A stretch of 45,381 bases of DNA from an uncultured Flavobacteriales bacterium (GTDB lineage: Bacteria > Bacteroidota > Bacteroidia > Flavobacteriales_E > Vicingaceae): contig CAJWVX010000008.1 of NCBI GenBank assembly GCA_913048175.1, forward strand, positions 1 to 45,381, given 5' to 3'. The notes beneath the pieces are model-generated. The model was not told the DNA's origin. It was given only the letters and a program-made list of their open reading frames with translations, and ran no database searches. Made by a program: the position numbers and the translations under genes. Below are positions 23,690-44,347 of the stretch, in pieces (within the stretch, counting starts at the first letter, position 1; each line of letters opens with the position of its first letter).

Positions 23690-23834
23690 TTAGTTTTTAG
23701 TTGCTTTCTGTTGACAAAAAATAAGGTGATATTACTTCCTAACTATTTACTCCAAATCATTCTAATGTAATGGTAAATAGATTCTTATATTTCACTCCGT
23801 TACAATCGGAATCAAACTTTCGTACTAAAAGAGA

Positions 23835-23869: not shown

Positions 23870-23879
23870 CCTTTTTGTA

Positions 23880-26039: not shown

Positions 26040-26044
26040 ATAAT

Positions 26045-27954: not shown

Positions 27955-29496
27955 TTGAAAACCAATAAATCTCGCATACTCAAACTCGCTTTATTTGCCA
28001 CAGGACTTTCTGGTATTGTCGCGGAATACATTTTATCTACATTAGCTACCTATTTTTTAGGTGATTCCGTTTTTCAATGGACAATGATTCTATCTGTCAT
28101 GTTGTTTGCGATGGGAGTTGGTAGTAGAATAAGTACCAAATTTGACACTAAAATATTAGAGAAATTCTTGGTTGCAGAATTTTGTTTATCCCTCCTAACT
28201 TCAACAGCAGCTTTATCCACTTACTTTTTTATTGGAGTTACAGAATACATTGCTGTAATTATTTATGGATTTAGTATCGCTATTGGATTACTAATCGGAA
28301 TGGAAATACCTTTAGTAACAAGAATTAACGAAGAAAACGAAGATCTAAGAACCAACATTGCTGGTGTAATGGAAAACGACTACTACGGTAGTTTAATTGG
28401 AGGTTTATTTTTTGTTTTTGTAGGACTACCCTATTTAGGCCTTACGCACACTCCTTTTGTTTTAGGAGGAGTTAATTTTTTAGTTGCAATTGTTCTTTTC
28501 TTTCGACTTAGAAAACACATTACAAGATTCTACAGAAGAGTCTTTTCTGCCGTTATTCCTTTATTACTAATAATAATTTCATTTTTAAGTTACAATGCAG
28601 ATGAAATTGTGTTGTATGGAGAACAAAAACGCTATAATGATAAGGTAGTTTTTTCAGAACAAACTCGTTATCAAAAAATTACAATTACCCAATGGAAAGA
28701 GCATTATTGGCTTTATCTTAACGGAAGTAAACAATTGTGTACGTTTGATGAATGGCTCTATCACGAACCTTTGGTTCATCCTGTAATGCAATTAACAAAA
28801 GACCCTAGAAATGTATTGATATTAGGTGCTGGTGATGGATGTGCCATTCGCGAAGTATTAAAATATAAAGGTGTTGAAAAAATTACCATAGTAGATATTG
28901 ACCCAAAAATGACCGAAATAGGAAAGACCAATCCTATTTTTATCGAAATGAATGACAGCTCTTACTACGATCCTAAAGTAAAAGTAGTAAACCAAGATGC
29001 TTTTCAATTTTTAGAAGAAACAGATCAATTTTATGATGTAATGATTCTTGATTTTCCAGACCCTAAAAGCATTGATCTAAACCGTGTTTACACTAGAGAG
29101 TTTTACACGCTTTGTAACCGAAGACTAAGACCAATGGGACACATTGTAACTCAAGCAGTAAGTCCATACTACACAACTAAAGCTTTTCGATCTATCGAGA
29201 AAACATTAGGTGCTTCAGGTTTTGAAACCTTACCGATTCACAACCACGTTTATTCATTCGGAGAATGGGGCTGGGTAATTGGCTCTAAACACCTAGACAA
29301 ACCAACTATGAAAAACAAGTTATTAGAAATGGATTTTCAGGATTTAGATGTTCAATGGATTACCAACGAATCCATGAACTTAATGACTTCTTTTGGTAAA
29401 GATTTAAAAAATGCGGACAGTGTAAAAGTCAATACGGTACACACCCCTGTATTGTACCGTTATTATTTAGATGGAACCTGGGCTAAATTTTTATAA
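27955..29496 (+). CDS. membrane-fused polyamine aminopropyltransferase (spermidine synthase-like), copy 1
   Basis: This enzyme transfers aminopropyl from decarboxylated AdoMet to an amine. The N-terminal half (about 1-215) has six or seven membrane segments; the C-terminal half (about 220-513) is the spermidine-synthase methyltransferase-like fold. There, VLILGAGDGCAIREVLKY (near 290) binds the nucleotide, TIVDIDPKMTE holds the adenosine-binding acid, and VMILDFPDPKS carries the catalytic Asp region. The length and fusion match the COG4262 type. TTG at 27955 is the best start because the membrane segment begins just after it (MKTNKSRILKLALFATGLSG) and aligns with the paralogue at 32746-34275. 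The next gene starts 2 bases later. Confidence 0.88.
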   Translation: MKTNKSRILKLALFATGLSGIVAEYILSTLATYFLGDSVFQWTMILSVMLFAMGVGSRISTKFDTKILEKFLVAEFCLSLLTSTAALSTYFFIGVTEYIAVIIYGFSIAIGLLIGMEIPLVTRINEENEDLRTNIAGVMENDYYGSLIGGLFFVFVGLPYLGLTHTPFVLGGVNFLVAIVLFFRLRKHITRFYRRVFSAVIPLLLIIISFLSYNADEIVLYGEQKRYNDKVVFSEQTRYQKITITQWKEHYWLYLNGSKQLCTFDEWLYHEPLVHPVMQLTKDPRNVLILGAGDGCAIREVLKYKGVEKITIVDIDPKMTEIGKTNPIFIEMNDSSYYDPKVKVVNQDAFQFLEETDQFYDVMILDFPDPKSIDLNRVYTREFYTLCNRRLRPMGHIVTQAVSPYYTTKAFRSIEKTLGASGFETLPIHNHVYSFGEWGWVIGSKHLDKPTMKNKLLEMDFQDLDVQWITNESMNLMTSFGKDLKNADSVKVNTVHTPVLYRYYLDGTWAKFL

Positions 29497-29498
29497 TT

Positions 29499-30575
29499 GT
29501 GTGGTTATTTGGAAAATATAAAGACCTCTTCATCCTTTTTATTCCTGTATGGATAATCTGGATCGTCCTATTTTTACTTCCCAACAGTTTTCTACAAAAT
29601 GATGTACCTCTATGGGTTTGGGCTGTTTTTATTTTAGGTATTGATGTTACTCACGTTTGGAGCACCCTTTTTAGAACATATCTCGATAAGGAAGAATTCA
29701 AAAATCATAAAACCGTTCTAATTCTAGCTCCTATCATTGCTTTTATTTTACTATTCGGTATTGCTCGTGAGGCGATAACTTATTTTTGGCGAGTATTGGC
29801 TTATTTAGCCGTGTTTCATTTTATGAAACAACAATACGGGTTTTTAGCATTGTATACTGCTAAAGCTAAAATCAAACAACATCATCGTATTTTTAAGGAC
29901 AAATGGGTCTTGTATTTCAGTATGTTATACCCTGTTTTATTTTGGCATTTATCCGACCGAAATTTTGTTTGGTTCGTTGATGGCGATTTCCTTACTACAA
30001 CTTTTCAATTTTCATGGAGAATAATTTCTGAATCAGTTTATTGGTTAACGATGATTGGATGGTTGATTGAAGAAATTTTACTCGTTCAAAAAAAGGTAAA
30101 CACACTTTCTTATGGTCGTGTTTTATGGTTAATAACGACTCTATTTAACTGGTATTTAGGAATCGTTTACTTTAATTCTGACATTGCTTTTACACTTACT
30201 AATGTTGTAGCTCATGGCTTACCTTATTTAGCTTTAGTCATATTTTATCAAATTAAAAAGAATAGATTTAAAGGATTTTTAACACAAAAAAAAATGAGTT
30301 GGATAGTTATCAGTATTGTGACATTCTCTTTATTATTAGCCTTTACCGAAGAATATTTTTGGGATATGCTCATTAACAGAGAAAAGGATAGTTTTTTTAC
30401 TTCAATAGTCAATTACCCAATGGAATCGGTTGTTAATTCTAGTTGGCAAATTATTGCTCTAGTACTACTTTCTTTACCTCAGGTAACTCATTATATTTTA
30501 GATGGTTTTATCTGGAAAATGAATGACTCTAACCCACATTTAAAACACTTATTAATTTCTGATAAAAATGGATAG
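29499..30575 (+). CDS. polytopic membrane protein with conserved-looking histidines
   Basis: This 358-residue protein has about eight membrane segments and starts with GTG, 2 bases after the aminopropyltransferase stop. I do not recognise it. Histidines fall at or near membrane ends: H52 (DVTHVWST), H107 (AVFHFMKQQYGF), H239 (VVAHGLPYL) and H331 followed by D335 (VTHYILDGFIW). This spread recalls membrane di-iron enzymes such as desaturases or hydroxylases but lacks their HxxHH boxes, so that is only a suggestion. Its end overlaps the FAD oxidoreductase start by 8 bases, so the three genes are coupled. It may act on a lipid or on the aminopropylated product. Confidence 0.75.
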   Translation: MWLFGKYKDLFILFIPVWIIWIVLFLLPNSFLQNDVPLWVWAVFILGIDVTHVWSTLFRTYLDKEEFKNHKTVLILAPIIAFILLFGIAREAITYFWRVLAYLAVFHFMKQQYGFLALYTAKAKIKQHHRIFKDKWVLYFSMLYPVLFWHLSDRNFVWFVDGDFLTTTFQFSWRIISESVYWLTMIGWLIEEILLVQKKVNTLSYGRVLWLITTLFNWYLGIVYFNSDIAFTLTNVVAHGLPYLALVIFYQIKKNRFKGFLTQKKMSWIVISIVTFSLLLAFTEEYFWDMLINREKDSFFTSIVNYPMESVVNSSWQIIALVLLSLPQVTHYILDGFIWKMNDSNPHLKHLLISDKNG

Positions 30576-32076
30576 AAGATCGTTTCTTAAAGTGAGTGGT
30601 GGACTGATTTTATTATCGGCCTGTAAAAATGAATATTCATCTAAAGATGGATTACAACAAAGTGAATTTCCTATTCATATTGATTCCAATAGTGCTGTAG
30701 GTCATTTAGTTCGTTCAGCAATGGAATTGCCTATTTCGGAAAGTACCTCAATAGAAACATTAATTGTTGGAGGGGGAATTGCCGGACTAGCCGCTGCTTC
30801 TTCTCTAAGAACTAACGATTTTGTAGTTTGTGAATTAGACCCAACTTTAGGCGGGACTTCTGGAGCAATCAACATTAATGGAAGCCTATATTCTCAAGGA
30901 GCACATTATGATTTAGCTTATCCCAACAATTACGGGAAAGATGGGTTACAACTGTTAGAAAAATTGAATATCATTCAATTTAACGGAGTAAAAAGTTTAT
31001 GGGAATTTCAGGATAAACAATACTTAATTCCCTCAGATAAAGAAGAGGCATGTTATGATAATGGCGTAATGCGTTCTTCCATTTTAGCCAACAATGAATT
31101 AAAGCAAAACTTCTTAGCGCTGTTAAAAACATACGACAATCAGTTTCCTTTACCAAGTACTTCTATTCACTCTGACTTACATCACTTAGATCATCTTACT
31201 TTTTACGATTATCTCAACAAATACTTACCCATCGATTCTTATTTTATCGAAGCAATTGATTACCAAATGTTAGATGATTTAGGGGGGACATCCAACCAAA
31301 TTTCCGCTTTAGCAGGAATACACTACTACAAATGCAGACCTTATTACAATGGTGAAGATTTAGAATTATTTTCGCCTCAGCAAGGTAACTACTATTTCAT
31401 TCAAAAAATGGCTAAAAAAATTGCTACCAATAGTTTATTAACCAACCATCTTGTTTTTGGGATGAAACAACAAAACAAAAGTTGGTATATTGATGTTTAT
31501 GATACCAAACAAAAAATTAGAAAAGAATATGTGACCAACAATATTGTTTACGCTGGTCAAAAGCATGCACTCAAACACATCCACCCAGAATCTCATGCTT
31601 CTTTTAATGATGTTTCTTATGCCCCTTGGGTAGTTGTTAATATCGAATTAAATGAGAACGATTTAGATGGAAGCAAATGGCAAAACGATTTTCTTTCTCC
31701 GAATAGAACTTTCTTAGGTTTTGTTGACTCTAAGATTCAAGACAACAAAAATAGTAGAGTACTAACTGCTTATTATTGCTTCCCAGACATTCATCATTAC
31801 ATCGTTAAAAACTTTGAAGCTTCTGCTAAAGATTTAGTGCATGAAACAGTTTCAAATATCTCTTTGTACTACAAAAAAGATATTAGTAAATTTGTAAAAC
31901 AAGCACACATAAAACTTCTTGGTCATGCCATGCCAATTCCACAACCTGGTTACCTAACTAAAAAACGTACTCTTTTTAAAGACAACCTAGCATTTGCTGG
32001 TGTAGATACAGGAAGATTACCTTTAATGTTTGATGCGTTGGATTCTGGTATACAGGCTGGTAAAAAATCAAGTTAG
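30568..32076 (+). CDS. FAD-dependent amine-oxidase-type lipoprotein
   Basis: This 502-residue flavoprotein appears to be exported. The N-terminus MDRRSFLKVSGGLILLSAC has a twin-arginine motif (RRSFLK) and a lipobox ending at C19, consistent with folded export and lipid anchoring. The dinucleotide-binding motif is LIVGGGIAGLAAASSL (65-80), followed by the acidic residue region VVCELDPTLGGTSG. The C-terminal FAD contact FAGVDTGRLPLMFDALDSG is amine-oxidase-like. Beside an aminopropyltransferase it could oxidise a polyamine or related amine on the periplasmic side; the neighbourhood supports this but the substrate is not shown by sequence. It starts within the upstream gene (8-base overlap). Confidence 0.82.
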   Translation: MDRRSFLKVSGGLILLSACKNEYSSKDGLQQSEFPIHIDSNSAVGHLVRSAMELPISESTSIETLIVGGGIAGLAAASSLRTNDFVVCELDPTLGGTSGAININGSLYSQGAHYDLAYPNNYGKDGLQLLEKLNIIQFNGVKSLWEFQDKQYLIPSDKEEACYDNGVMRSSILANNELKQNFLALLKTYDNQFPLPSTSIHSDLHHLDHLTFYDYLNKYLPIDSYFIEAIDYQMLDDLGGTSNQISALAGIHYYKCRPYYNGEDLELFSPQQGNYYFIQKMAKKIATNSLLTNHLVFGMKQQNKSWYIDVYDTKQKIRKEYVTNNIVYAGQKHALKHIHPESHASFNDVSYAPWVVVNIELNENDLDGSKWQNDFLSPNRTFLGFVDSKIQDNKNSRVLTAYYCFPDIHHYIVKNFEASAKDLVHETVSNISLYYKKDISKFVKQAHIKLLGHAMPIPQPGYLTKKRTLFKDNLAFAGVDTGRLPLMFDALDSGIQAGKKSS

Positions 32077-32745: not shown

Positions 32746-34275
32746 CTAATACAAATCCCAATTACCATCCAAATAATACCTATAAAGGACTGGAGAATTA
32801 ATTGTATTTATTTCCACCCTAGAGGTATCAAATAATGGCAAGCCAAAAGAAGTTATTAAACTAATAGATTCATTATTTAACCACTTATTATTTAAGCCCT
32901 CATAAGAAGCTCTTTTCATTACATCAATCATTTGTTCCTTATTATAATGCTTACTCCCTACAATCCAACCCCACTCTCCTAATGTTAATACTTGATTGTG
33001 CATTTGAAGCGTTTCAAAGCCAGCTGATTCCATCGTTTTATTAATACAATAAAAGCCTCTAGTAGCATAATAAGGACTGCCAGCTTGTGTTATAATATGC
33101 CCGTTTGGTCTTAATAACCGGTTTGCCATCTGATAGAACTCTTGTGTATATAATTTATTGATTTCTAAATTTTTAGCATCTGGCAAATCCACTATTATCA
33201 AATCATAGAATAGCTCACTTTTTTCTAAAAAATTAAATCCATCTTCATTAACTATTTCAACCCTAAAATCATGAAGGGCAGAATCATTATACTGTAATAA
33301 ACCTTCAAATTCTAAACCTAAATTAGTCATCGCAGGATCTAAATCTACAATAGTAATATTATCAATACCTTCATATTTCAATAGTTCCTTTACATTAAAT
33401 CCATCTCCTCCTCCAATAACTAAAATATCCTTATGTTCAGGAGTTAAAGCCATTACAGGATGAACCATTGGTTCATGGTAAAGAAATTCATCAAAAGTAC
33501 TGAGTTGTTGATTTCCATTAATAAACAACCAATAATGTTCATTCCATTGAGTAATTACAATTTTTTGATATCTTGATTGTTCTTCATAAACGATTTTATC
33601 TTTATATCTTGCTTGTTCTCCGAAAAGAATAATCTCTTCTGAAAATAAGAAACCCAAACTTAAAAAAATCGAGATAGAAAGGATGGAAGTTATGATCCAT
33701 TTATCATATTCTAAGGTATCATCTTTGTATTTCCAAAATAATATAACGGCCACCACAAAATTTAGTAAACCAAACAGAAATGCGGTATTTGTTATTCCTA
33801 GATATGGTAGACCAAAAAAAGCAAATGACAATCCTCCAACTAAACTACCGATATAATCCCAAGACATTATGTTCGATATATTCTTCTCTAATGTTTCATG
33901 CGCCTCATTTAATCTTGTGGCTAATGGAATTTCAAAACCAATACAAAACCCAACCAACAATGCCAGGCCATATATCAAAATATGAATAAATTCACTTTTA
34001 GCAGCCAACGAATAAACGATTAATGGAGAAAAGCTAATCAGTAATGATAATGAGAATTCAACAACAAGAAAAGTTAATAATAAGCGTTTAACTACTATCC
34101 GGCTTACCTGACTTCCTATTCCCATAGAAAAAAGCATTATTGACAACACAACAGTCCATTGAACAATAGTATCCCCAATAAAATAAGAAGCTAAAGTGGA
34201 AAGAATAAACTCTGAGGTTAATCCAGAAATTCCTGTCGCAAATATTGCAATTTTTAACCAAAGTCCTTTATTCAT
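32746..34275 (-). CDS. membrane-fused polyamine aminopropyltransferase (spermidine synthase-like), copy 2
   Basis: This is a 509-residue paralogue of the enzyme at 27955-29496, strikingly similar along the whole length (compare the starts KIAIFATGISGLTSEFILST and KLALFATGLSGIVAEYILST). Membrane segments fill residues 1-215 and the catalytic fold the rest. LVIGGGDGFNVKELLKY (near 288), TIVDLDPAMTN and DLIIVDLPDAKN are the nucleotide and catalytic motifs; the usual D-P after the catalytic Asp is D-A here. It closes the nine-gene operon that also holds AdoMet decarboxylase, the enzyme that makes its co-substrate. It probably works on an amine or lipid head group at the inner membrane. Confidence 0.88.
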   Translation of the reverse strand: MNKGLWLKIAIFATGISGLTSEFILSTLASYFIGDTIVQWTVVLSIMLFSMGIGSQVSRIVVKRLLLTFLVVEFSLSLLISFSPLIVYSLAAKSEFIHILIYGLALLVGFCIGFEIPLATRLNEAHETLEKNISNIMSWDYIGSLVGGLSFAFFGLPYLGITNTAFLFGLLNFVVAVILFWKYKDDTLEYDKWIITSILSISIFLSLGFLFSEEIILFGEQARYKDKIVYEEQSRYQKIVITQWNEHYWLFINGNQQLSTFDEFLYHEPMVHPVMALTPEHKDILVIGGGDGFNVKELLKYEGIDNITIVDLDPAMTNLGLEFEGLLQYNDSALHDFRVEIVNEDGFNFLEKSELFYDLIIVDLPDAKNLEINKLYTQEFYQMANRLLRPNGHIITQAGSPYYATRGFYCINKTMESAGFETLQMHNQVLTLGEWGWIVGSKHYNKEQMIDVMKRASYEGLNNKWLNNESISLITSFGLPLFDTSRVEINTINSPVLYRYYLDGNWDLY

Positions 34276-34306
34276 TTGGATCTAAAATAAGAATAACTGC
34301 TAAAGC

Positions 34307-35182
34307 TTATGAAAAACTCATACAGATCAACATTGATCCTCCAATATATGAAAATGCTTCAATTATTGAAGCTCCAATATTCGGATTCTCTTGGTTAATA
34401 ATTTCATCTGTCAGTTTTCTTTTTGGAAGTAAAATTTTATCTGTTAATAACCTTGCTAGTGGCAACATTAATAAACCTACACCCGTTTCTAAAATAAGAT
34501 TCTCTCCAACCATTATCCAGTTGTCGGCATCCATTTGAGCGCCAAATCGGACTAAGTTTCCAATAGCTACAATTGCGCCTGCGAAACCTATTCCTACAGC
34601 AACATTATCTTTTTCAATATGCTCATGAATATCGTAAGGTGTAATTAAATTATAAATAATACCAACTAAAACAAGTGCTATTTGTGAAATAGCCCACAAG
34701 ACAAGAACTCCAATAAAATTATCTTGATTTTCTGCCAGTACGCCAAAAATAATTAAACCATTAGCAATACAAATAGCTCCTTCAATAACTCCAGTTCCAG
34801 CATTTTGATCTTCAATTATTTCTTTTTTTACGGAGAACTTTCTTAAAATTATCTTGTCAGAAATAAACATTGATGCATTCAATAATATAATCGATAACAT
34901 TCCATAAATAAAAATATCAATAATATTATCTACAATATGAGCTATACCATCCCCGGCATAAACACTAGAAATTGCAATAATCAATCCTGTATAATACCCT
35001 ACATTAGCTAAGGAAAAAGCTAAGTTGTCCTTTTCCACTAATTCATGATCCATGTCAATATCTCGATGAATTAATTGATATACTTTCTTTCCGATTAAGA
35101 AAAGTACAAAACTCACCAACAAGTATATTAATGCTGTAATCAGATTATCTAATGTTGCTAAAAAGTTAAATTGCATAGTCAT
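34307..35182 (-). CDS. tandem DUF350 membrane protein (YjfL-like)
   Basis: This 291-residue polytopic protein is made of two DUF350 repeats. Each repeat contains an E-K-D-N start and a glycine-rich membrane helix: EKDNLAFSLANVGYYTGLII and EKDNVAVGIGFAGAIVAIGN. E. coli YjfL carries a single DUF350 domain and sits in the yjfIJKLMC operon. Function is unknown; DUF350 proteins travel with PspA and glutathionylspermidine- or spermidine-synthase genes, which fits this operon. It lies 31 bases upstream of the aminopropyltransferase. Confidence 0.85.
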   Translation of the reverse strand: MTMQFNFLATLDNLITALIYLLVSFVLFLIGKKVYQLIHRDIDMDHELVEKDNLAFSLANVGYYTGLIIAISSVYAGDGIAHIVDNIIDIFIYGMLSIILLNASMFISDKIILRKFSVKKEIIEDQNAGTGVIEGAICIANGLIIFGVLAENQDNFIGVLVLWAISQIALVLVGIIYNLITPYDIHEHIEKDNVAVGIGFAGAIVAIGNLVRFGAQMDADNWIMVGENLILETGVGLLMLPLARLLTDKILLPKRKLTDEIINQENPNIGASIIEAFSYIGGSMLICMSFS

Positions 35183-35212
35183 TCTTTTTATTCGTTATAT
35201 GATAAGGCTAAA

Positions 35213-35914
35213 TTATTTCCCATAACCAAAGCCTCTTGATCGACCTCCAGTTCTACTTCGGGATGAAGACCATCCTGACTTAGTGGCTCTTCGTTGAAAG
35301 AAATTTGGTTTTGATTTTTTAGTCTGTGCGGAATTTGTTCCATACATAGTGCTACTTCCTGTTTTGGGTCCATAATAGCCTCTTCCACCATAATAGCCAC
35401 CAGAACTGTATGAATTGTAATGATTTCGGTAAACAGGTCGGTTACTCATTCCAAACATATGAGACATAAACATGTATTGTCCGTAAAATGCCCAAAAGCT
35501 ATTTCCGTTATTAGATCTCCATTCCCCATATTTTTTATTTCCTACATAACCATATCCTGGAGGAGATGCTGCTTTAGAAATTTTTCCTTCTCCGTTTTTT
35601 TCTAGGACAGTCATTCCTAAGTTATTTTCGTTTTTCCAGAAAAAATCTTTCTCAACTTCTTTCCATCCTGTAATTTCGGAATAAGGAGTTCCATCTTTCT
35701 TATTTCTAATTACTTTGTATAGATGTTTATAGGTTTTAAAAAAAGTTCCATCTACATCCATATCTTCAATGATAACAGAAAACGTAGCTTCGTTACTAAA
35801 TTCTGTAATGTAAGCATCTAGTGGCGATTTTTTAAATTCTCTACCTCCACACCCAATAAGAAACATACTGGTTAGAAAGATAGTACTTATTAAAACTGTT
35901 AAATTTATTCTCAT
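35213..35914 (-). CDS. lipoprotein with Gly/Tyr/Ser-rich tail
   Basis: This 233-residue protein has a lipoprotein signal (lipobox MFLIGC, C22). A mature domain with W-rich strands follows (ITGWKEVEKDFFWKNE, then EWRSNNGNSFWAFYGQYMFM). From about residue 160 to the end the tail is low complexity (YSSGGYYGGRGYYGPKTG, SSSRSRTGGRSRGFGYGK) and is basic. E. coli YjfM/YgiB (DUF1190) proteins, in the matching place of the yjf operon, also end in a Gly/Ser/Arg-rich tail, so this could be their functional counterpart; I cannot show homology. A sticky, aggregating or membrane-binding tail is inferred. Confidence 0.7.
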   Translation of the reverse strand: MRINLTVLISTIFLTSMFLIGCGGREFKKSPLDAYITEFSNEATFSVIIEDMDVDGTFFKTYKHLYKVIRNKKDGTPYSEITGWKEVEKDFFWKNENNLGMTVLEKNGEGKISKAASPPGYGYVGNKKYGEWRSNNGNSFWAFYGQYMFMSHMFGMSNRPVYRNHYNSYSSGGYYGGRGYYGPKTGSSTMYGTNSAQTKKSKPNFFQRRATKSGWSSSRSRTGGRSRGFGYGK

Positions 35915-35926
35915 TATTTATTTTTT

Positions 35927-36457
35927 TTATCGTGGAAGAATATTCGAAAACTCAAATTCTTTTACATATTTACCTTTTGCCGCTCCAAACTCTTCTTCTC
36001 CAAATCGGTCAATTGATAAAAGTTCCTTTGTTTCAGGATTTTCATACATCCAATTAACTAACTCTGAGTCTTCACTTTCTCCTTGTTCTTTATAAAGTCC
36101 CTGACTTGACTCTTTTCTAATAAATGTTTTATTCTCAAATACCAATTTATTAGGAGCCTCGTCTGTTGACTTAATTGAATTGACTAATCCAGAATCAATT
36201 TCAAATATATCCAACTTATTCCAAATAGAACAGATTAGTTTATCATCTTCTTCTATATTCAAATAGATAGTTTCATCTCCTGAATCAAGCAAGTATTCTT
36301 TAGAGTGAAAATTATTACCCCAATCATAGACGTACACTTTCTTTACCTCCCATGTTTTGATGAAATATTCCACCATAAATCCAACCTTCATATCATTTAC
36401 CGTGAAATCTATGTTGGCTTCCGTCTTATCACTTTTTAAAAAATCGAATATTCCCAT
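35927..36457 (-). CDS. DUF4178-like protein
   Basis: This 176-residue soluble beta-rich protein has no signal peptide. The pattern VNDMKVGFMVEYFIKTWEVK, then YVYDWGNN, then KEYLLDSGDETIYLNIEEDD and later LVNWMYENPETKELLSIDRF matches my expectation of DUF4178, a domain that accompanies PspA and DUF350 genes. The function is unknown. It lies 8 bases after the K+ channel gene and 12 before the lipoprotein gene. Confidence 0.7.
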   Translation of the reverse strand: MGIFDFLKSDKTEANIDFTVNDMKVGFMVEYFIKTWEVKKVYVYDWGNNFHSKEYLLDSGDETIYLNIEEDDKLICSIWNKLDIFEIDSGLVNSIKSTDEAPNKLVFENKTFIRKESSQGLYKEQGESEDSELVNWMYENPETKELLSIDRFGEEEFGAAKGKYVKEFEFSNILPR

Positions 36458-36465
36458 AGTATAAA

Positions 36466-37305
36466 TTAATTATGAATTTGTTGTCCGCATGTTTCACATT
36501 CAGGCTGGTCAATTTCTTTTTCGTTTGCAGCATTTACTTGATCTTCATTCGGATTTTCAATCGTTGTACCAAAACCATTAGCTAAAATACCGGCTGGAAG
36601 AGCGAAAAGGCCAACGCCTAAAATGGCCATAATTCCTGCCATCAATTTCCCGAAACCTGTTATCGGGTAAACGTCTCCATAACCCACAGTAGTTAAAGTG
36701 GCTACTCCCCACCACATGGTTGCCGGAATACTTGAAAAAGCTTCTGGCTGCACTTCATTTTCAATAAAATACATTAAACTAGATGAAATTACAAGCAGTG
36801 TTAAAACTGCAAATAAGGAGATCACTAATTCTTCTTTGGCTTGATAAATAACTCTTCTAATATGACTAAATGCTTTATTATATCTAGAAAGTTTTAAAAT
36901 TCTAAACAAGCGTAATATCCTTATACCTCTTACCACTCTTGAGTCAACAACAGCTAGCAAAGGAATGTAGGCAGGAACTACAGCTATTAAATCTACCAGA
37001 CTATAAAATGAAAATAAATACTTTAACCTTCCTTTAAATGGTGTTGAGTATTCTTTTTTTTCGGTGATAGACCATATTCGAATGAGATATTCAATACTAA
37101 AAATAGTGATTGAGAAATTTTCTATATAATTAAATAGAAGCCCATATTCTAATTTCATCCACTTAACAGACTCTAGAATAACAGCTAAGATATTCAACAA
37201 TATCAATACTATAATGAAGATATCTACCCTTCTACTCCAAGAGTCATCAGAATGTCCTTTTTCAAGAATTTCGTAAGAACGTTTTTTAAGAACTTGATAA
37301 CTCAT
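36466..37305 (-). CDS. voltage-gated potassium channel (six-segment type)
   Basis: This 279-residue inner-membrane ion channel has six membrane segments. The S4 sensor carries spaced arginines (R123, R126, R129, R132, R135, R141: VVRGIRILRLFRILKLSR). The K+ selectivity filter TTVGYGDVYP is at residues 205-214, between S5 and S6. The short C-tail ends with PECETCGQQIH, a CxxC pair that could sense redox state or bind zinc. The gene overlaps the end of the AdoMet decarboxylase gene by 20 bases, so the two are coupled. In a PspA operon a K+ channel suggests sensing or adjusting membrane potential. Confidence 0.92.
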   Translation of the reverse strand: MSYQVLKKRSYEILEKGHSDDSWSRRVDIFIIVLILLNILAVILESVKWMKLEYGLLFNYIENFSITIFSIEYLIRIWSITEKKEYSTPFKGRLKYLFSFYSLVDLIAVVPAYIPLLAVVDSRVVRGIRILRLFRILKLSRYNKAFSHIRRVIYQAKEELVISLFAVLTLLVISSSLMYFIENEVQPEAFSSIPATMWWGVATLTTVGYGDVYPITGFGKLMAGIMAILGVGLFALPAGILANGFGTTIENPNEDQVNAANEKEIDQPECETCGQQIHN

Positions 37306-37669
37306 TTTCTACAAATTTACTTTCTACAAACCCTCTTTCTATACTTTTATAAGCATGCTTTTTTGAATTTAAAATTTGCACTAAATGATCATAAGCTTTA
37401 TGATAATCCATTGACAAGTTACAAGTAAAAAAATCAACTGCAGCATAACCATGCTCAGGCCATGTATGAATAGCCAAATGACTCTCAGCAACAACAACAA
37501 CACCAGTAACACCCTGAGGTGAAAACTGGTGAAATATAGATTTTATTATTGTTGCATTTGACACTCTAGCTGCTTGATTCATCTCAACCTCCAATAACTT
37601 TAAATCATTTAGAATATCAGATGAACACTCACTAAATTCCATTAAAATATGTAACCCCAACTGCTTCAT
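37286..37669 (-). CDS. speD: S-adenosylmethionine decarboxylase (pyruvoyl type)
   Basis: This enzyme makes decarboxylated AdoMet, the aminopropyl donor. The 127-residue proenzyme is of the short bacterial/archaeal class. Key residues are in the exact places of the Thermotoga enzyme: self-cleavage between E62 and S63 (VVAESHLAIHTWPEHG), processing His H68 and the catalytic Cys C83 (DFFTCN). It is therefore likely active. The start ATG abuts the stop of the small membrane protein. Its presence beside two membrane-bound aminopropyltransferases, and no soluble SpeE, points to dcAdoMet use at the membrane. Confidence 0.95.
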   Translation of the reverse strand: MKQLGLHILMEFSECSSDILNDLKLLEVEMNQAARVSNATIIKSIFHQFSPQGVTGVVVVAESHLAIHTWPEHGYAAVDFFTCNLSMDYHKAYDHLVQILNSKKHAYKSIERGFVESKFVENELSSS

Positions 37670-37825
37670 TTATGTTTTCTCTTTAAAAAATTTATACCAA
37701 ATATAAATTCCTGCAAAAATTATAGCCAAAGGAACAAACAATTTTAAAGCTAGTTTAAACAACCACCATAAAACGACAAGCAAACCAATTACAAATATAA
37801 CGATAATGACTGTTTTCTTACTCAT
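37670..37825 (-). CDS. 51-residue membrane protein
   Basis: A short gene between PspA and SpeD. The ATG at 37825 is 5 bases after the PspA stop and the TAA abuts the SpeD start. The protein reads MSKKTVIIVIFVIGLLVVLW, then WLFKLALKLFVPLAIIFAGI and YIWYKFFKEKT. It has a basic N-terminus, one long or two short membrane segments, and a basic aromatic tail. It resembles the 50-residue product at 18006-18158 in layout and size. The function is unknown; it may anchor PspA or SpeD to the membrane. Confidence 0.75.
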   Translation of the reverse strand: MSKKTVIIVIFVIGLLVVLWWLFKLALKLFVPLAIIFAGIYIWYKFFKEKT

Positions 37826-37830
37826 GGTTA

Positions 37831-38550
37831 TTATTTAGAGCTATCGCCTTTACTTGCAGCCATTTTCGCCTTCAATTCAGCAAGACTATCTGATGCAGAA
37901 GCTCCAGAACCACCTATAGCACCATCGATTTCATCATCTAGTGATTTTGACTCATTAGCAATACTACCATAAGCATCAGAAAGAGCTTCTTCTTGCTCTA
38001 CTTTATCCTTCATTCTTTCCAATAATGAAATGGTATCTGAAGAATCAATAGCAGCCATTTGCTTATTTATATTCTTAGTTGCAGAAGCTACTTTTACTCT
38101 AGCTTTAAGCGTTTTCAACTCATTTTCCCAAGAACTAATCTTAGATCTTAAAGCTTTAACATTTACTCCTAATTTACTAACATTCTTTTCAAACTGTAAT
38201 TGCTGACCAGAAGCTCTTTCAACATGAGATTCACTCTCAGCCTTTTTATTTAAAGCTTCGCCTGCCAACCTATCAGCTTCGTCTGCTGAAAGCTGACCAC
38301 TTTCAGCTCTTTGAAGTAGCAACATCGCTTTCTTTTCATAATCTACAGCCTTATCTTTCTCTGTGTTAATTTCATTACGAGATCTAATCTCTAAAGCTTT
38401 AACTTCTGCCAACGCTTTCAAGCAATTTTCAAGATCTTTTTTCATATCTCTAATCCCTTGCTCCGTCATTTTAATTGGATCTTCTAACTTATCAACCACA
38501 GAGTTAGCTTCTGCTTTTCCTAACGTAAATAATCTTTTAAATAAACTCAT
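37831..38550 (-). CDS. PspA/IM30 (YjfJ-like) membrane-stress protein
   Basis: PspA-family proteins form ESCRT-III-like rods and cover damaged inner membrane. The 239-residue protein is almost all helix: an amphipathic N-terminus MSLFKRLFTLGKAEANSVVD, then EDPIKMTEQGIRDMKKDLEN, a family hallmark, then a long coiled coil, then a Gly/Ser/Ala-rich C-terminus. Its operon partners (YjfI-like upstream, DUF350 downstream) place it nearer to E. coli YjfJ than to the PspABC stress operon. It is 12 bases after the DUF2170 gene. Confidence 0.93.
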   Translation of the reverse strand: MSLFKRLFTLGKAEANSVVDKLEDPIKMTEQGIRDMKKDLENCLKALAEVKALEIRSRNEINTEKDKAVDYEKKAMLLLQRAESGQLSADEADRLAGEALNKKAESESHVERASGQQLQFEKNVSKLGVNVKALRSKISSWENELKTLKARVKVASATKNINKQMAAIDSSDTISLLERMKDKVEQEEALSDAYGSIANESKSLDDEIDGAIGGSGASASDSLAELKAKMAASKGDSSK

Positions 38551-38562: not shown

Positions 38563-38958
38563 CTAATTTTTTGAAAATTTGATTAATTCATTTGAATATT
38601 CTGACAACAACAAACTCAACGAGTTTAATGTTCCTTCTAATTCATTCCTATCTAAATTTGCTAATTGTAGCGTGTCTCTAAATATTACTTTCTTACCACT
38701 TTCATCTAAAACAAAAGCACCATGTATGATGTCTCTATTTTTTTTAAGTAAACTCTGAAACACATCTATAGATTCAGAGCCTATCTCCATTAAATACTGT
38801 TCCAATATTAAAATGGGATCAGCACACCCAATTGCACAATTTTTTATTCCTGAGGCTTCATCATTAATAATAATGATTTGATCCTCCTCAATTGTTGTTG
38901 TTATTGTATACCCTAGGTCTAAAACAAAGTCCTTAACCTTACTAAAGTTATCATTCAT
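38563..38958 (-). CDS. YjfI-like DUF2170 protein
   Basis: This 131-residue soluble protein has the DUF2170 signature stretch NRDIIHGAFVLDESGKKVIF and then RDTLQLANLDRNELEGTLNS, which is nearly the same in E. coli YjfI. The fold looks like a type III secretion chaperone-type alpha/beta sandwich, which is an impression. It is the first gene of the nine-gene operon, directly upstream of PspA as in the E. coli order yjfI-yjfJ. It is probably a PspA partner or regulator. Confidence 0.85.
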   Translation of the reverse strand: MNDNFSKVKDFVLDLGYTITTTIEEDQIIIINDEASGIKNCAIGCADPILILEQYLMEIGSESIDVFQSLLKKNRDIIHGAFVLDESGKKVIFRDTLQLANLDRNELEGTLNSLSLLLSEYSNELIKFSKN

Positions 38959-39102: not shown

Positions 39103-39141
39103 TAGCAATTATTTTATCAATTGCTAATATTTTTAGCAATT
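39103..39141. promoter_or_regulatory. triple AGCAATT repeat, likely operator of the XRE regulator
   Basis: Three half-sites lie in alternating orientation: TAGCAATT (39103-39110), AATTGCTAA (39119-39127) and TTAGCAATT (39133-39141). The second and third form a perfect 9-5-9 inverted repeat, the first and second an 8-8-8 one. They sit 55-93 bases upstream of the XRE gene and in the divergent region shared with the PspA-SpeD operon. Confidence 0.6.
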
Positions 39142-39195: not shown

Positions 39196-39864
39196 ATGTC
39201 AAAAATAGGCTCTAACATAAGGAAAATAAGATCTGTAAAAGCTTTAAGTCAAAATGACTTTGCACAACTTTTCAAGCTTACTCGCGCTAGTATTGGTGCA
39301 TATGAAGAAGGACGAGCTGAGCCAAAAATAGATGCTGCGATAGAAATTGCTAAATATTTTAGCATAACTCTTAGTGATATTTTCACCAAAGACTTAACAG
39401 TAAACCAACTCACCAAATTTAATATTCAAGAAATAATAGAAAATGAAGCTACAATTAAAAAGAAATCCATTCCATTTATAAACAACTCTAATTGGGACAG
39501 TTTTTTTAATGGAATAGATTTATCAAATGAAAAAAATACCATTGACTCTCCTCAAAACTTCATTAATGGTGAAATAGCCATTGAAATAACCAACCAAATA
39601 AACTCTGATTTTGACAATGGTACAATTGTTATTTGCAGCCCAATTAAGACTCCGACTGAAGATACAGCATACTTGTTAGTAACAAAGGAAAAAGCATCTA
39701 TCTCATCCTTAAGCGAAATAAAATCACTTTCAATAATAGAACCTAGAATCTATATTATTAATCAAAAAATAGAGAACCTTAGAAAAGGAAATTCAGACTC
39801 TCTAGAAAAACGTATTGAGAAACTAGAGAAGGAAATAAAAATAATAACGAACAAATTAAAATAG
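39196..39864 (+). CDS. XRE-family transcriptional regulator
   Basis: This 222-residue protein has an N-terminal helix-turn-helix (residues 5-62; LSQNDFAQLFKLTRASIGAY is the core). A middle domain of strands follows (GEIAIEITNQINSDFDNGTI, VICSPIKTPTEDTAYLLVTK), which resembles the LexA/S24-type C-terminal fold of many Bacteroidota XRE regulators but shows no Ser-Lys dyad that I can point to. A terminal coiled coil follows (SLEKRIEKLEKEIKIITNK), probably for dimerisation. Its stop TAG is directly followed by the nuclease ATG, so it heads the operon and likely represses it through the repeats just upstream. Confidence 0.85.
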   Translation: MSKIGSNIRKIRSVKALSQNDFAQLFKLTRASIGAYEEGRAEPKIDAAIEIAKYFSITLSDIFTKDLTVNQLTKFNIQEIIENEATIKKKSIPFINNSNWDSFFNGIDLSNEKNTIDSPQNFINGEIAIEITNQINSDFDNGTIVICSPIKTPTEDTAYLLVTKEKASISSLSEIKSLSIIEPRIYIINQKIENLRKGNSDSLEKRIEKLEKEIKIITNKLK

Positions 39865-40548
39865 ATGGAAGAAGTAATCGAATTAATAAAGGAATCTATA
39901 ACTGATCACGTATTAATAAGTAGTGAGAAAAAAGGTATCAAACAATTAATATCTTCTAAAAAATTTAATAAAAGAGAAATGGACTTTTTAAGAAGTCAAA
40001 TTTTCGATATTGCAAAAAACAACCAAGAAGAGCTATCAAAAGGTAGTTTACTAGAATGGATAGAGAATATAAATAAATTAACACTCACCAATACGGACAC
40101 TAACAAAAACAGTTCTTACGCTTATTTTAGTCCAGGAAACACTTGCCGAAACGCAATTATCCAACAAATAAAATTAGCTACAGAATCTTTAAAAATCTGT
40201 GTATTCACTATTAGTGATAATGAGATCTCTAAAGAAATTATATCGGCTTACAAAAAAGGAATTAATGTTAAAATAATTTCTGATAATGACAAAAGCTTTG
40301 ATTTAGGTTCTGATATCGAACAAATGGCAAATAGCGGAGTTGACACCAAAATAGACAACAGCCCCAGCCATATGCACCACAAGTTTTGTATTATAGACAA
40401 AGACACTTTAATTACAGGAAGTTACAATTGGACAAGAAGTGCTGCTGAACGAAACCAAGAGAACATACTCATAAACAAAGAGCCTCAAATAATTAAAAGC
40501 TATCTGAAAGAGTTTGATAAACTATGGAAAGAACTAGATAAATATTAA
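39865..40548 (+). CDS. phospholipase-D-type nuclease (single HKD motif)
   Basis: This 227-residue protein has an N-terminal helical part (1-80) and a C-terminal PLD domain. The single HKD motif is HHKFCIID (H171, K173, D178) followed by GSYNWT (185-190) and E200 in the N-x-E-N pattern, the order found in Nuc-type endonucleases, which pair as dimers to complete the active site. The stretch GNTCRNAIIQQIKLATESLK before the first strand is also typical. Nuc-like proteins cut DNA or RNA, and relatives act in restriction and defence operons. No signal peptide is seen, so it is cytoplasmic, unlike secreted Nuc. It abuts the XRE gene. Confidence 0.88.
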   Translation: MEEVIELIKESITDHVLISSEKKGIKQLISSKKFNKREMDFLRSQIFDIAKNNQEELSKGSLLEWIENINKLTLTNTDTNKNSSYAYFSPGNTCRNAIIQQIKLATESLKICVFTISDNEISKEIISAYKKGINVKIISDNDKSFDLGSDIEQMANSGVDTKIDNSPSHMHHKFCIIDKDTLITGSYNWTRSAAERNQENILINKEPQIIKSYLKEFDKLWKELDKY

Positions 40549-40568
40549 ACATCAATAACAAAATAAAA

Positions 40569-40955
40569 ATGACTGAAAAAGAAAAATTGTATGATGCTTT
40601 TGGCGAACTAATTTATGCTGTAGCTAAAGCTGATGGAGAAATACAAAAAGAAGAGATAGAAGCATTAAAGAGTGTTTTAGAAAACAACCATGGAGCAAAA
40701 GAAATTAATTGGTCTTTTAATTATGAAATTTCAAAAGACCACTCTATTTATGAGGCTTATTCTAAAGCAATAAATATTTGCAAAGAATATGGCCCAAGTA
40801 AAGAGTATCTCGAATTAATAAATATTTTAGAAAAAGTTGCACAATCAAGCAACGGAATCGACAATAATGAACAAAACATAATAGATAACTTAAGAAAGGA
40901 TTTAACTGATCGCTTTAAGAAAGACTTAGAAGACCTTAACCTTTTAAAAAAATAG
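40569..40955 (+). CDS. TerB-like protein of the helicase operon
   Basis: This 128-residue helical protein has the TerB-type turn DAFGELIYAVAKADGEIQKE (D-G-E-I...E). A second half follows in which LINILEKVAQSSNGIDNNEQ repeats the pattern (N-G-I-D...E). The acidic turns could bind metal. It lies 20 bases after the nuclease gene and 12 before the helicase gene, so it is an integral part of this operon. TerB domains occur as sensors or adaptors in several conflict-type operons. It is the third TerB-like protein of the window. Confidence 0.75.
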   Translation: MTEKEKLYDAFGELIYAVAKADGEIQKEEIEALKSVLENNHGAKEINWSFNYEISKDHSIYEAYSKAINICKEYGPSKEYLELINILEKVAQSSNGIDNNEQNIIDNLRKDLTDRFKKDLEDLNLLKK

Positions 40956-40967
40956 CTAATCAATTCA

Positions 40968-43736
40968 ATGTCCACTCTCAAAAATATCATTTCATACTAC
41001 AAAGATTGCTTTGAAGACGAAAATAAAGGTGGAGGCATCTGGAACTTTTTTACAACAAAAGTTGAACATCGATACCTTATCCCCAATATAGAAGAACATA
41101 TTACTGGTTTTTTACCCTACACACCAATTCTGAATAAAAATGCTGATGCTTTAAGCAACGAAATAGCATACTATAAAAAAGAGAAAGAAATTATTTACGC
41201 TACGTTATTCATATTAGGGAAATACACCAATATGAATGGAAAAAAAATGCGATTAATAGCTCCTGTCATTATCTATGACTGTGAAATAATTAACGAAAAC
41301 GGATACTCTTACGCTCAAGCTGACTTTAAATCTAGCTCTATAAACCCGGCTGTTTTAAGCACTATAAAATCTCAAAACCCAAAATTTGATGAGAACAAAT
41401 TTTTAGAAAAATTTCCTAAAGGAGAGATAACATCTGCTAAAAGCGGAATAATAGCAAAATTACTTGACACTGCTTTTACAGATATTGATACTACAAGAAT
41501 TGTAGATTACCCCAAAAATTACTCACAAACTAAGATTACCAACTTTTTTAAAAAGAACACATTTAAAGATTCGTACCAACTAGTTCCTTCATCAGGAATA
41601 GGAATATTAAAGAAATCGACACACACAAGAAGCATCCTTAATGAGCTTAATATTTTATCCGAAAAAGAGACCAATTTTTCTAAACCACTCGAATCAATTT
41701 TCATCAAAGGAAGTACTCAAAAAATTCAATCAAAAACCACCCAAATAAACCCTCCATCCTCACTTAGTATTCCACAAGAAAATGTTTTAAGAACAGCAAA
41801 TTCGTTTAATATATCTATGGTAATTGGTCCGCCAGGAACTGGAAAATCATTTACTATTGCCAACCTTGCCATTGACCAAATGAGCAAAAACAAAAGCGTT
41901 TTAATTGCCTCTAAAAATGATGGAGCAGTAAATGTAATTGAAGACAAAATAAAAAAATTAGTAGACAATAAGGTAAACTGTTTTAGAGGTGGAAAAAACT
42001 CACATAAAAAAGAACTGAAAAACCGCTTACAATTTCTACTGTCAAGAAACAGTATTAGTGAAAGTCGCCAATACAAAAAAGATAATAAGAGCATACTCGA
42101 ATTAGATTTTAACCAAAGAAAAAAAGACCTTAATGCTATAAATAGTGAACTTAAGTCTATCGAAAAATTGTTTTCAGAAAAAGAAATAATTGAACTAGAC
42201 AGAGGATTTAAAATACATGAAAACGAAATTTCGCCTAACCTCTTAAATAAAATATCAACATACTTTATTAAAGTTGGAATAAAGCTATCCAACAACATAG
42301 ACATAGTATATTTAATAAAAATATATACCGAATTAATAGAAAAACACAAAGAGGAAACAAAAAAATACATTATCGATCTTCATGAATTTAAGATCCACTC
42401 AGCAATTGTTGAAAACAGAATTATTTTAAAAAACTTTCTACAATCTCTCAGAGCTTCACACTCCGCAAGACAAGACAGATATTTTGATAGCATAGACTTT
42501 AAAGCTTTATTTAATGTATTCCCAATATGGCTAACAACTACTAAAGATATTGGAGAAATACTCCCTCTTAAAAAAGAACTTTTTGACGTTTTGATTATTG
42601 ATGAAGCATCTCAATGCGACATCGCAACATGCATACCTCTTATCCACAGAGCAAAAGAAATTATTATTGTTGGAGATCCCAAACAACTCAATCATATTTC
42701 TTTTCTATCCAAAATAAGACAACTTCAACTTCAAAAGAAATACAATCTTCCAGAAGAAATGGAGGCCCTTTTAGATTATCGAAATACAAGCATTTTAGAC
42801 CTTACCGAAATGACTATAGCTGATCAAGTTCAGGTTAATTTTTTAGACGAACATTATAGGAGTAAGCCTGAGATTATAGCCTTTAGCAATCAGAATTATT
42901 ATTTTAACGAACTAAAAATAATGACTGATCATCCAAACTTAGAACACAACAATCTAAAATGGAATAAAACGAATGGAATAAGAACTAACAAAGGAATCAA
43001 CAACGAGGAAGCTAACACCATTATTAACCACATAAAAAACATTATAAAACAAGAAGAAACACTTCCTCTTGAAAATAAAAGTACAATAGGAATACTTTCT
43101 CCTTTTAGAGCTCAAGTAAACCACATTATATCTTTAATTGAGAGAGAGATAAGTCTAAAACAATATGGCGACCACAACATACTTATCGGTACTGCACACA
43201 GTTTTCAGGGTGAAGAAAAAGACGTTATGCTCCTTTCTTTTGTGGTAGATAACGAATCTCACCCCTCCTCTTTTCACTTCCTAACTCAAGAGGATGTTTT
43301 TAACGTAAGTATTACAAGAGCTAAGAACGAACAACACCTATTCACCTCATTCAACACTAACGAACTCTCACTAAATCATACATTAAGAAAGTATTTTGAA
43401 TCTATTGACATCTTTAAAAGGAAACAACATTTCTTACCCAATACAAAAGATCTTTTTTGTAAAGAGATAATTGAATACATTAACTCCCTAAAAGTAAACA
43501 CCAAAATAGCTTACAGTACTGCCGGAATTACAATAGATTTAGTAGCTATTTTAGAGACTAAAGTTATTGGGTTTGATTTACTTGGCTATCCTGGTCCTTT
43601 TGAGAAAGCAATAAGCCTAAATAAGTACAAAATACTACAAAGAGCAAAAATTAAGCTAATACCAATTACTTACTCTGCCTGGACTTTCAAAAATGAAGAC
43701 ACCAAAAATACCATCAAAATTACATTGGAACTTTAA
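40968..43736 (+). CDS. SF1 (Upf1/Dna2-like) helicase with C-terminal nuclease-like domain
   Basis: This 922-residue protein has motif I GPPGTGKS (287-294), motif II IIDEASQ (D545, E546), motif III VGDPKQL (near 568), motif IV-like LDEHYRSKPEI and motif VI NVSITRAKNEQ, with GTAHSFQGEEKD as motif V. This is the COG1112 layout. The N-terminal 280 residues hold a domain I do not recognise, and residues 370-480 between motifs Ia and II are helical. The C-terminal 90 residues contain TIDLVAILETKVIGFDLLGY (D857, E863, K865), a PD-(D/E)xK-like arrangement. It would unwind or cut DNA or RNA. It is the last and largest gene of the XRE-PLD-TerB operon. Confidence 0.88.
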   Translation: MSTLKNIISYYKDCFEDENKGGGIWNFFTTKVEHRYLIPNIEEHITGFLPYTPILNKNADALSNEIAYYKKEKEIIYATLFILGKYTNMNGKKMRLIAPVIIYDCEIINENGYSYAQADFKSSSINPAVLSTIKSQNPKFDENKFLEKFPKGEITSAKSGIIAKLLDTAFTDIDTTRIVDYPKNYSQTKITNFFKKNTFKDSYQLVPSSGIGILKKSTHTRSILNELNILSEKETNFSKPLESIFIKGSTQKIQSKTTQINPPSSLSIPQENVLRTANSFNISMVIGPPGTGKSFTIANLAIDQMSKNKSVLIASKNDGAVNVIEDKIKKLVDNKVNCFRGGKNSHKKELKNRLQFLLSRNSISESRQYKKDNKSILELDFNQRKKDLNAINSELKSIEKLFSEKEIIELDRGFKIHENEISPNLLNKISTYFIKVGIKLSNNIDIVYLIKIYTELIEKHKEETKKYIIDLHEFKIHSAIVENRIILKNFLQSLRASHSARQDRYFDSIDFKALFNVFPIWLTTTKDIGEILPLKKELFDVLIIDEASQCDIATCIPLIHRAKEIIIVGDPKQLNHISFLSKIRQLQLQKKYNLPEEMEALLDYRNTSILDLTEMTIADQVQVNFLDEHYRSKPEIIAFSNQNYYFNELKIMTDHPNLEHNNLKWNKTNGIRTNKGINNEEANTIINHIKNIIKQEETLPLENKSTIGILSPFRAQVNHIISLIEREISLKQYGDHNILIGTAHSFQGEEKDVMLLSFVVDNESHPSSFHFLTQEDVFNVSITRAKNEQHLFTSFNTNELSLNHTLRKYFESIDIFKRKQHFLPNTKDLFCKEIIEYINSLKVNTKIAYSTAGITIDLVAILETKVIGFDLLGYPGPFEKAISLNKYKILQRAKIKLIPITYSAWTFKNEDTKNTIKITLEL

Positions 43737-43765: not shown

Positions 43766-44347
43766 TTAGACTTTTTTACGACTAAATAAAAAACCTAAGC
43801 CACCTCCAATAATACCTCCTAAAATGTGAGCAAACTGAGAGATATTGTCCGCATTAAAACTATTTAAAACCTCTCCTCCAATATAAATTAAAACGATAAA
43901 GATAAAGGTTAAGGGAATTTCTTTTTGCTTCATATTAACAACTGATGAAAGCACAATAAACATAAACACAATACCACTAGCCCCAATAATACCACTATCA
44001 AATAACAGCACGTTTAAAAGACCAGTAACAAAGGCGGTAAAAAGTGTCATTAAAGTTAAAAGTTTTGTACCATATTTCTCTTCTAAAATTGGTCCTAACA
44101 TTAACAATAACAAAATATTACCTATAAAATGTTGAAAATCAGCATGACAAAGAGTGTAGCTTATTAATTGGTAAAATTCTATAATGTTCAAACTCGAAGA
44201 AAGACCGAAAAAATTATTTATTAAACCTCCAGTTAACATATTTAAAAGTAGTACAGCAAGAGAAAGTAAACAAAAAGTTAGTGTAAATTTTGCATTATAC
44301 TTCACTCTCCAATTACCACTATCTATTAAATTTCTTCTATTCTCCAT
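43766..44347 (-). CDS. rhomboid-family intramembrane serine protease
   Basis: This 193-residue protein has about six membrane segments. The catalytic Ser is S124 in GASG and the His is H174 in FAHILGG; H73/N77 in HADFQHFIGN form the usual oxyanion region. It cleaves membrane proteins inside the bilayer. The first 20 residues are soluble and basic. It converges with the helicase gene (29 bases apart) and appears to be a single-gene unit. Substrate unknown; a role in the membrane systems next door is possible but not supported by orientation. Confidence 0.9.
   Translation of the reverse strand: MENRRNLIDSGNWRVKYNAKFTLTFCLLSLAVLLLNMLTGGLINNFFGLSSSLNIIEFYQLISYTLCHADFQHFIGNILLLLMLGPILEEKYGTKLLTLMTLFTAFVTGLLNVLLFDSGIIGASGIVFMFIVLSSVVNMKQKEIPLTFIFIVLIYIGGEVLNSFNADNISQFAHILGGIIGGGLGFLFSRKKV

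Follow-up and report, generated by a model that had tools for sequence, protein, structure and literature searches.

A PLD-TerB-helicase gene set as a candidate accessory effector cassette of a CesT/Tir-PspA locus in an uncultured Flavobacteriales bacterium

Within a 45,381-nucleotide stretch of DNA from an uncultured Flavobacteriales bacterium (contig CAJWVX010000008.1 of assembly GCA_913048175.1; the whole stretch is called the window here), four adjacent genes at 39196-43736 encode an XRE-family regulator, a phospholipase D (PLD) family protein, a TerB-like protein and a superfamily 1 (SF1) helicase. We propose, with a rough probability of 0.45, that the last three of these genes (39865-43736) constitute an accessory cassette of effector genes that belongs to a CesT/Tir-PspA envelope-stress locus and is placed behind the divergent XRE gene of that locus. 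The proposal draws on the position of the XRE gene beside YbjN-PspA, on empty sites, on the chimeric make-up of the XRE protein, on PLD and helicase genes following the XRE gene elsewhere, on a helicase remnant in a related locus (L144), on a half-site shared by intergenic regions, on the differing sources of helicase and TerB in two operons and on the published presence of PLD genes in PspA operons. As judged from sequence comparison, the cassette is most likely an envelope-stress-controlled nucleic-acid-processing module, possibly with an anti-phage role.

Gene content of the operon and its empty sites

The four open reading frames (ORFs) are all encoded on the plus strand with intergenic gaps of 0, 20 and 12 bases, just as the first-pass annotation of this sequence had described them. 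They and the features that bear on their boundaries are:

39119-39141: putative XRE operator, an inverted repeat (AATTGCTAA-N5-TTAGCAATT) in the XRE-YbjN intergenic region
39196-39864, plus strand: XRE regulator, 222 residues; HTH_3 (Pfam, 4.8e-8)
about 39410-39430: change-over within the XRE gene, between a helix-turn-helix (HTH) half resembling the XREs of empty sites and a C-terminal half resembling the XRE that precedes a PLD gene in genome G016
39865-40548, plus strand: PLD-family protein, 227 residues; PLDc_2 (Pfam, 1e-30); single HKD motif; conserved N-terminal region of about 90 residues
40569-40955, plus strand: TerB-like protein of subfamily A, 128 residues; TerB (Pfam, 6.7e-7)
40968-43736, plus strand: Upf1/SETX-like SF1 helicase, 922 residues; AAA_11 (Pfam, 4.5e-23) and AAA_12 (Pfam, 1.2e-25); N-terminal beta-rich part, helical insertion and C-terminal predicted PD-(D/E)XK-like fold without the lysine
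43766-44347, minus strand: rhomboid-family gene (Pfam, 2.3e-18), the right-hand boundary of the empty site

Based on Pfam profiles and on the HKD motif, the identities first suggested for the products, namely a regulator, a Nuc-type single-HKD protein, a TerB-like protein and a COG1112-type helicase without a kinase domain, hold good, with no kinase family detected in the helicase at E<=1 (Pfam). Motifs read from the sequence are intact in both the PLD protein (the HKD motif HHKFCIID...GSYN) and the helicase (the Walker motifs GPPGTGKS and DEAS), and the NCBIfam matches of these two proteins fall far under the cut-offs. The same four-gene order is present in one further genome, G342 (locus L011, with L068 on the same contig), and this repetition indicates that the operon is more than a chance arrangement.

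A search of 295 genomes of the class with the XRE protein recovered 30 with a match, the window's included. Wider stretches of these loci were labelled by phmmer with the window proteins; three of the 29 non-window stretches (L142, L155 and L170), in which the XRE gene was cut or uncalled, were left out, and the 26 loci counted include some near relatives (L147 with L171; L151 with L152). The XRE gene of the window is divergent from a CesT/Tir-like gene and PspA, and an XRE gene divergent from YbjN and PspA is found in 18 of the 29 non-window loci, the weakest 11 having no divergent YbjN-PspA within their 1.5 kb flanks. In six loci whose PspA type is that of the window (L143, L146, L147, L148, L171 and L172) the XRE gene is followed directly by the rhomboid gene, with gaps of 177, -4, -8 and 7 bases in the first four, and all six have the polyamine-type arm described below up to the contig limits (without the ion channel in L147, L171 and L172). 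Because these empty sites keep the XRE gene and go on to the rhomboid gene, the cassette comprises 39865-43736 and the XRE gene is part of the resident locus. By this comparison the operon of the first-pass annotation is real but wrongly bounded, and the notion of a self-contained unit with its own regulator has to be given up, as the XRE gene adjoins CesT/Tir-PspA whether the PLD, TerB and helicase genes are present or not.

Behind the XRE gene, a PLD gene is found in seven of the 26 other loci (L011, L141, L145, L157, L169, L173 and L174), in six of them without TerB and helicase, and a helicase gene in two, namely L011, with PLD and TerB, and L032, directly after the XRE gene. Furthermore, a match to helicase residues 882-916 (35 residues, 49%) lies about 46 bases past the XRE stop codon in L144, a locus from the window's family, and by its sequence we read it as a probable deletion scar or remnant. 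A comparison of the two cassette ends for common direct repeats gave nothing beyond an 11-base match. In line with the first-pass annotation, the operon is not a fixed core locus: of 46 genomes from the family of the window, one has the helicase at E<=1e-40, the order being represented by the same 46 genomes. The CesT/Tir gene occurs in four of these 46, from which it follows that the whole locus is accessory in the family.

The chimeric regulator and the neighbouring PspA locus

The window XRE protein is a chimera. Its residues 1-66 share 79-83% identity with the six empty-site XREs and 59% with the XRE of L141, an XRE-PLD locus of the other PspA type from a genome of the same genus as the window, and its residues 111-190 share 4-15% with the former and 61% with the latter. 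The discriminating sites switch near residue 73, from 17:0 to 5:64 (L146 versus L141), and with this cut, picked after the identity pattern was known, Fisher p values are 1.9e-11 to 6.6e-14 for four empty-site rows against L141 and 9.7e-5 to 1.2e-8 against L145 and L169. Windows of the DNA itself change over near 39410-39430. An assembly artefact is thought unlikely, because it would require two joins and because the right flank is the expected rhomboid gene. We posit that two XRE paralogues recombined, such that the resident HTH was kept and the C-terminal half was brought in together with its PLD gene; by comparison, then, the cassette would have arrived with the half of the XRE to which a sensor role may be ascribed, and the HTH would have remained of the resident type. 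Genes of a second operon type at 17108-26683 of the window would be consistent with an exchange within a single genome.

The half-site of the putative operator (TTAGCAA/TTGCTAA), which was taken from the window itself, is present in 19 of the 27 intergenic regions between XRE and YbjN, some of them from closely related loci, with 31 sites in total; 300 dinucleotide shuffles gave 3.05 sites on average and 10 at most. The window XRE was not assigned to the LexA/CI-type regulators with an S24 domain, there being no S24 match in it at E<=0.01. On a Hymenobacter plasmid, by the plasmid's own annotation, a LexA-family gene is divergent from a Tir-chaperone gene, PspA and DUF1449.

The genes divergent from the XRE gene are:

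32746-38550, minus strand: PspA operon of the polyamine type (Pfam), similar in gene content to the second CesT/Tir-PspA group in the excerpted text of PMC11237479
32746-34275, minus strand: spermine synthase (Pfam)
34307-35182, minus strand: DUF350 (Pfam)
35213-35914, minus strand: unnamed gene
35927-36457, minus strand: DUF4178 (Pfam)
36466-37305, minus strand: ion channel (Pfam)
37286-37669, minus strand: AdoMet decarboxylase (Pfam)
37831-38550, minus strand: PspA (Pfam, 2.4e-46)
38563-38958, minus strand: CesT/Tir-like (YbjN-related) PspA partner (PF22550, Pfam, 2.9e-53)

The CesT/Tir-PspA pair, accompanied by spermine synthase, DUF350 and DUF4178, places this arm in the polyamine group, and its divergent XRE has the conserved HTH found at other such loci. 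In many XRE-YbjN-PspA loci a second operon type is seen, in which relatives of the window genes 26045-26683, 23880-26039 and 18164-23050 lie behind PspA; the last of these encodes a DUF3686 AAA protein (Pfam, 3.2e-186), and the first two have no Pfam match and are labelled YqiJ-like and flotillin-like by position alone, after the first group in the excerpted text of PMC11237479. In the window, the genes of this type (17108-26683, minus strand) stand without another CesT/Tir-PspA pair and include two TerB genes (17592-17990 and 17108-17572). Spermine-synthase-domain genes are present at both 27955-29496 (plus strand) and 32746-34275 (minus strand), with the gene 29499-32076 between them, an arrangement similar to that in L147, L171 and L172. 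According to the same excerpted text, some CesT/Tir-PspA operons of Proteobacteria also contain a PLD gene, alongside the band-7/flotillin and AAA group.

Distribution and origins of the cassette genes

Helicases of this family were found in seven of 395 class genomes at E<=1e-70, the window included, and in seven of 349 genomes of another family. A scan of genome contigs with a 155-residue helicase core yielded 573 confirmed relatives, the best 80 of which were examined; an earlier scan with the whole helicase had confirmed none of 78 stretches. With the window and G342 proteins as queries, the helicase ORF was labelled in 78 of these best 80 loci, at least ten of which have upstream sequence shorter than 1.5 kb, so that some neighbours may be missed. 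Their taxa are Bacteroidota, Gammaproteobacteria, Verrucomicrobia, Planctomycetes, Acidobacteria and a few others, and the nearest relative of the window helicase among them (L030) is cut upstream by a contig end. Among mobile elements, five pattern matches in viral contigs gave no confirmed relative, six phage records have partial matches, and one of 431 plasmid records, from Persicobacter, covers 80% of the helicase, with no PLD, TerB or XRE alongside by BLAST with the window queries. Some helicase copies look decayed, the gene being split into two ORFs or carrying a TGA stop in L081 (5531-8236) and L182. In all four Aquimarina loci (L072, L074, L078 and L096) a conserved gene of about 302 residues (8260-9168) follows the helicase with a 4-base overlap.

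The PLD subfamily with the N-terminal region also occurs away from the XRE gene (L019, L020 and L021), adjoining genes that by eye resemble glycoside hydrolase and MGMT genes in L020 and L021. On a Vibrio campbellii megaplasmid (L023, 3111-9752) a DUF3686 AAA protein, a PLD protein of the same subfamily and TelA are encoded in a row; a relative of the flotillin-like gene is present, and the 16.7 kb examined gave no match to the window PspA or CesT/Tir queries. A relative of this DUF3686 AAA protein is encoded on a Photobacterium megaplasmid (L024, 3124-7995).

The search for homologous operons suggested by the first-pass annotation returned one more four-gene operon, that of G342, with a helicase that is not a sister of the window's and a TerB of another subfamily. 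In a helicase tree of 24 rows out of 80 (LG+G4, short search), forcing the window, L011 and L032 helicases together cost 96.3 log-likelihood units (approximately unbiased [AU] test, p 1.27e-5). Pairwise, AU p was 0.005 for window-L011, 1.4e-4 for window-L032 and 0.0498 for L011-L032, so that the test barely rejects the last pairing. For the window TerB, a relative is found in L070 (1.6e-34), the sole other member of subfamily A among the loci examined; its neighbour is a helicase of this family that is not a sister of the window helicase (AU p 0.0006). The window TerB has no detectable relation to the L011 TerB (E about 1), itself a relative of the L153 TerB that lies behind a DUF3686-type gene (7e-20) and of the window genes 17108-17572 (1.7e-29) and 17592-17990 (1.1e-25). 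Both subfamilies match Pfam TerB, L070 below the cut-off. Since the helicases are not sisters and the TerB subfamilies differ, the four-gene set was probably assembled twice, from different parts; alternatively, the pattern may reflect replacement of genes or fast divergence of TerB.

Predicted activities, competing explanations and known systems

Among solved structures the PLD protein is closest to mitochondrial cardiolipin hydrolase (MitoPLD/Zucchini, 2e-27), followed by Nuc (6.5e-17) and NucT (1.9e-9). By profile the helicase matches SEN1, SMUBP-2 and UPF1, and its AlphaFold model, with a mean predicted local distance difference test score (pLDDT) of 86.9, matches SETX and UPF1 and ends in an alpha-beta-beta-beta-alpha-beta unit (residues 829-901). 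PD-(D/E)XK nucleases carry an aspartate and a (D/E)-x-K motif on a beta hairpin, and we take the last 90 residues of the helicase to follow the order of this fold. All 28 aligned helicases have both D857 and D870, and the lysine position of E-x-K is L, V or I in the seven rows read. Of the D...E-x-K nuclease tail first suggested, then, the predicted fold order and the aspartates stand and the lysine does not; the model points to a nuclease-like fold without the E-x-K lysine.

We posit that the XRE would act in the intergenic region between the two arms and hold both of them repressed, until a signal reaches its C-terminal domain and repression is lifted. PspA with its partners would then stabilise the membrane, and foreign or damaged nucleic acid in its vicinity would be unwound and cut by the PLD protein together with the Upf1-like helicase, with TerB as a possible adaptor to a sub-membrane complex; the arm might then work as a split, membrane-linked Mokosh in anti-phage or anti-plasmid defence. 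PspA was named for phage infection and has mostly been studied as a membrane-repair protein, and Zucchini/PLD6 and Armitage/MOV10L1 are membrane-linked partners. By analogy, in a bolder extension that we regard as rather doubtful, the PLD protein and helicase would form a membrane-linked immunity arm paralleling Zucchini-Armitage/MOV10L1 at the mitochondrial surface, PspA-CesT/Tir would report phage entry or a breach of the membrane, and the XRE, its sensor half travelling with the effector and its HTH with the local operator, would release the arm, the set having been assembled at least twice.

Several observations weigh against the cassette reading. The full four-gene order is known in two cases only, the window and G342, and the helicase mostly stands without the XRE, PLD or TerB alongside: the XRE adjoins it in one of six non-window class matches (one of them cut by a contig end), none of the three lies within the 1.5 kb flanks of the seven helicases of the other family, and among the best 80 of 573 loci the XRE adjoins it in two (L032 and L068), TerB in two (L068 and L070) and PLD in one (L068). 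In L160, also a locus of the polyamine type, the XRE is followed by two other genes instead of the rhomboid gene. The half-site is absent from eight of the 27 intergenic regions, including those of L143 and L146, which are empty sites with close HTHs. S24 is matched in seven of 24 XRE proteins at E<=0.01, not in that of the window, whose structure model (pLDDT 41.7) is too poor for a fold search. A PADLOC scan of 122 of 160 neighbour ORFs gave 58 matching families at E<=1e-5, the commonest of the 25 listed having two members each, a result that, with no control set, is indecisive on defence islands; by eye, the recurrent-neighbour clusters resemble ordinary genes. The helicase pair tests weaken the case for double assembly without reversing it.

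Finally, the PLD protein may act on lipids. In that event it could be a cardiolipin or phospholipid hydrolase for PspA membrane repair, with the helicase as a loose passenger, an explanation that we consider unlikely: the ranking of cardiolipin hydrolase ahead of Nuc, the status of PLD as the commonest XRE partner among those labelled (7 of 26) and its place between the DUF3686 AAA ATPase and TelA in the Vibrio locus favour it, but Nuc and NucT, which are nucleases, belong to that superfamily as well, and the helicase and TerB genes came from different sources in the two operons. Less likely still is the view of the first-pass annotation that the four genes are a free-standing new anti-phage system with the XRE as dedicated regulator; tight co-directional spacing, the same gene order in G342 and a patchy distribution speak for it, but the XRE and YbjN-PspA exist without the other genes, empty sites retain the XRE, and XRE-PLD occurs without TerB and helicase in six of the 26 other loci. 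That ordinary RNA or DNA metabolism genes drifted beside the PspA locus by chance would suit the usual isolation of the helicase among the best 80 of 573 loci, but it has a slim probability, given that three loci from different branches carry a helicase of this family at the same position and a fourth carries its remnant there. A split type II Mokosh, with helicase and PLD as separate chains, is about as improbable. The PADLOC search, advised when the operon was first noted, did return partial matches of the helicase to MkoC (5e-49), PDC-S37 and MkoA, and of the PLD protein to DrmC (1.1e-12), MkoC (2.9e-10, at its C-terminal part, 948-1118 of 1136) and MkoB (3.2e-7, over part of the profile); but 28 of 28 compared helicases of this family match PDC-S37, MkoC and MkoA at E<=1e-10, a score too unspecific for membership, the best PLD score is to DrmC, and fusion and kinase are both lacking.

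If the slot behind the XRE gene repeatedly takes PLD, TerB and Upf1-like helicase genes, envelope-stress sensing would be tied to nucleic-acid attack. Such a slot would make the recurrence of PLD enzymes in PspA operons testable, and the chimeric regulator suggests how it could be reloaded under the control of a kept resident operator.

In type I Mokosh the helicase chain MkoA has a kinase domain and the PLD protein MkoB is separate, and in type II a single chain, MkoC, joins the helicase to a C-terminal PLD. The window set shares with both a PLD protein and a helicase and may, by analogy, work like them; it differs from type I in having no kinase and from type II in having two chains, with a helicase that ends in a PD-(D/E)XK-like unit, and it adds TerB and the PspA context. 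Of the kinship with Mokosh first proposed, the likeness in parts, a PLD protein with a COG1112/Upf1-type helicase, is what remains. The set resembles the Zucchini-Armitage/MOV10L1 pair in a PLD protein closest to MitoPLD among solved structures and in a helicase of the Upf1 group, but no Argonaute or PIWI protein is encoded among the four genes and the functional tie is an analogy only. Mokosh proteins have been described, in excerpted text of PMC11291487, as having domain homology to the piRNA pathway and as degrading viral transcripts. Shango, as excerpted from PMC10250203, is an anti-phage operon of a TerB-like protein, an ATPase and a DEAD/DEAH helicase, and TerB is named as a domain of Shango and Bunzi in an excerpt of PMC10952713. 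A TerB-like protein and a helicase in one operon are common to Shango and the window, but PLD is not among the three Shango genes as excerpted, the window operon has no separate ATPase, and its helicase is SF1 and Upf1-like; it was not assigned to Shango. Among open-licence PMC papers, none was found that joins TerB, phospholipase D, SF1 helicase and XRE in one operon, or TerB, helicase, nuclease, tellurite/TelA and PspA, which is weak evidence of absence. The closest published counterpart of the minus-strand arm is the second group of CesT/Tir-PspA operons, alike in spermine synthase, DUF350 and DUF4178 in the excerpted text of PMC11237479, the main text of which has no mention of XRE, helicase, TerB or nuclease. 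Relative to these operons, what is new here is the divergent XRE gene and the slot behind it that holds PLD, TerB and helicase.

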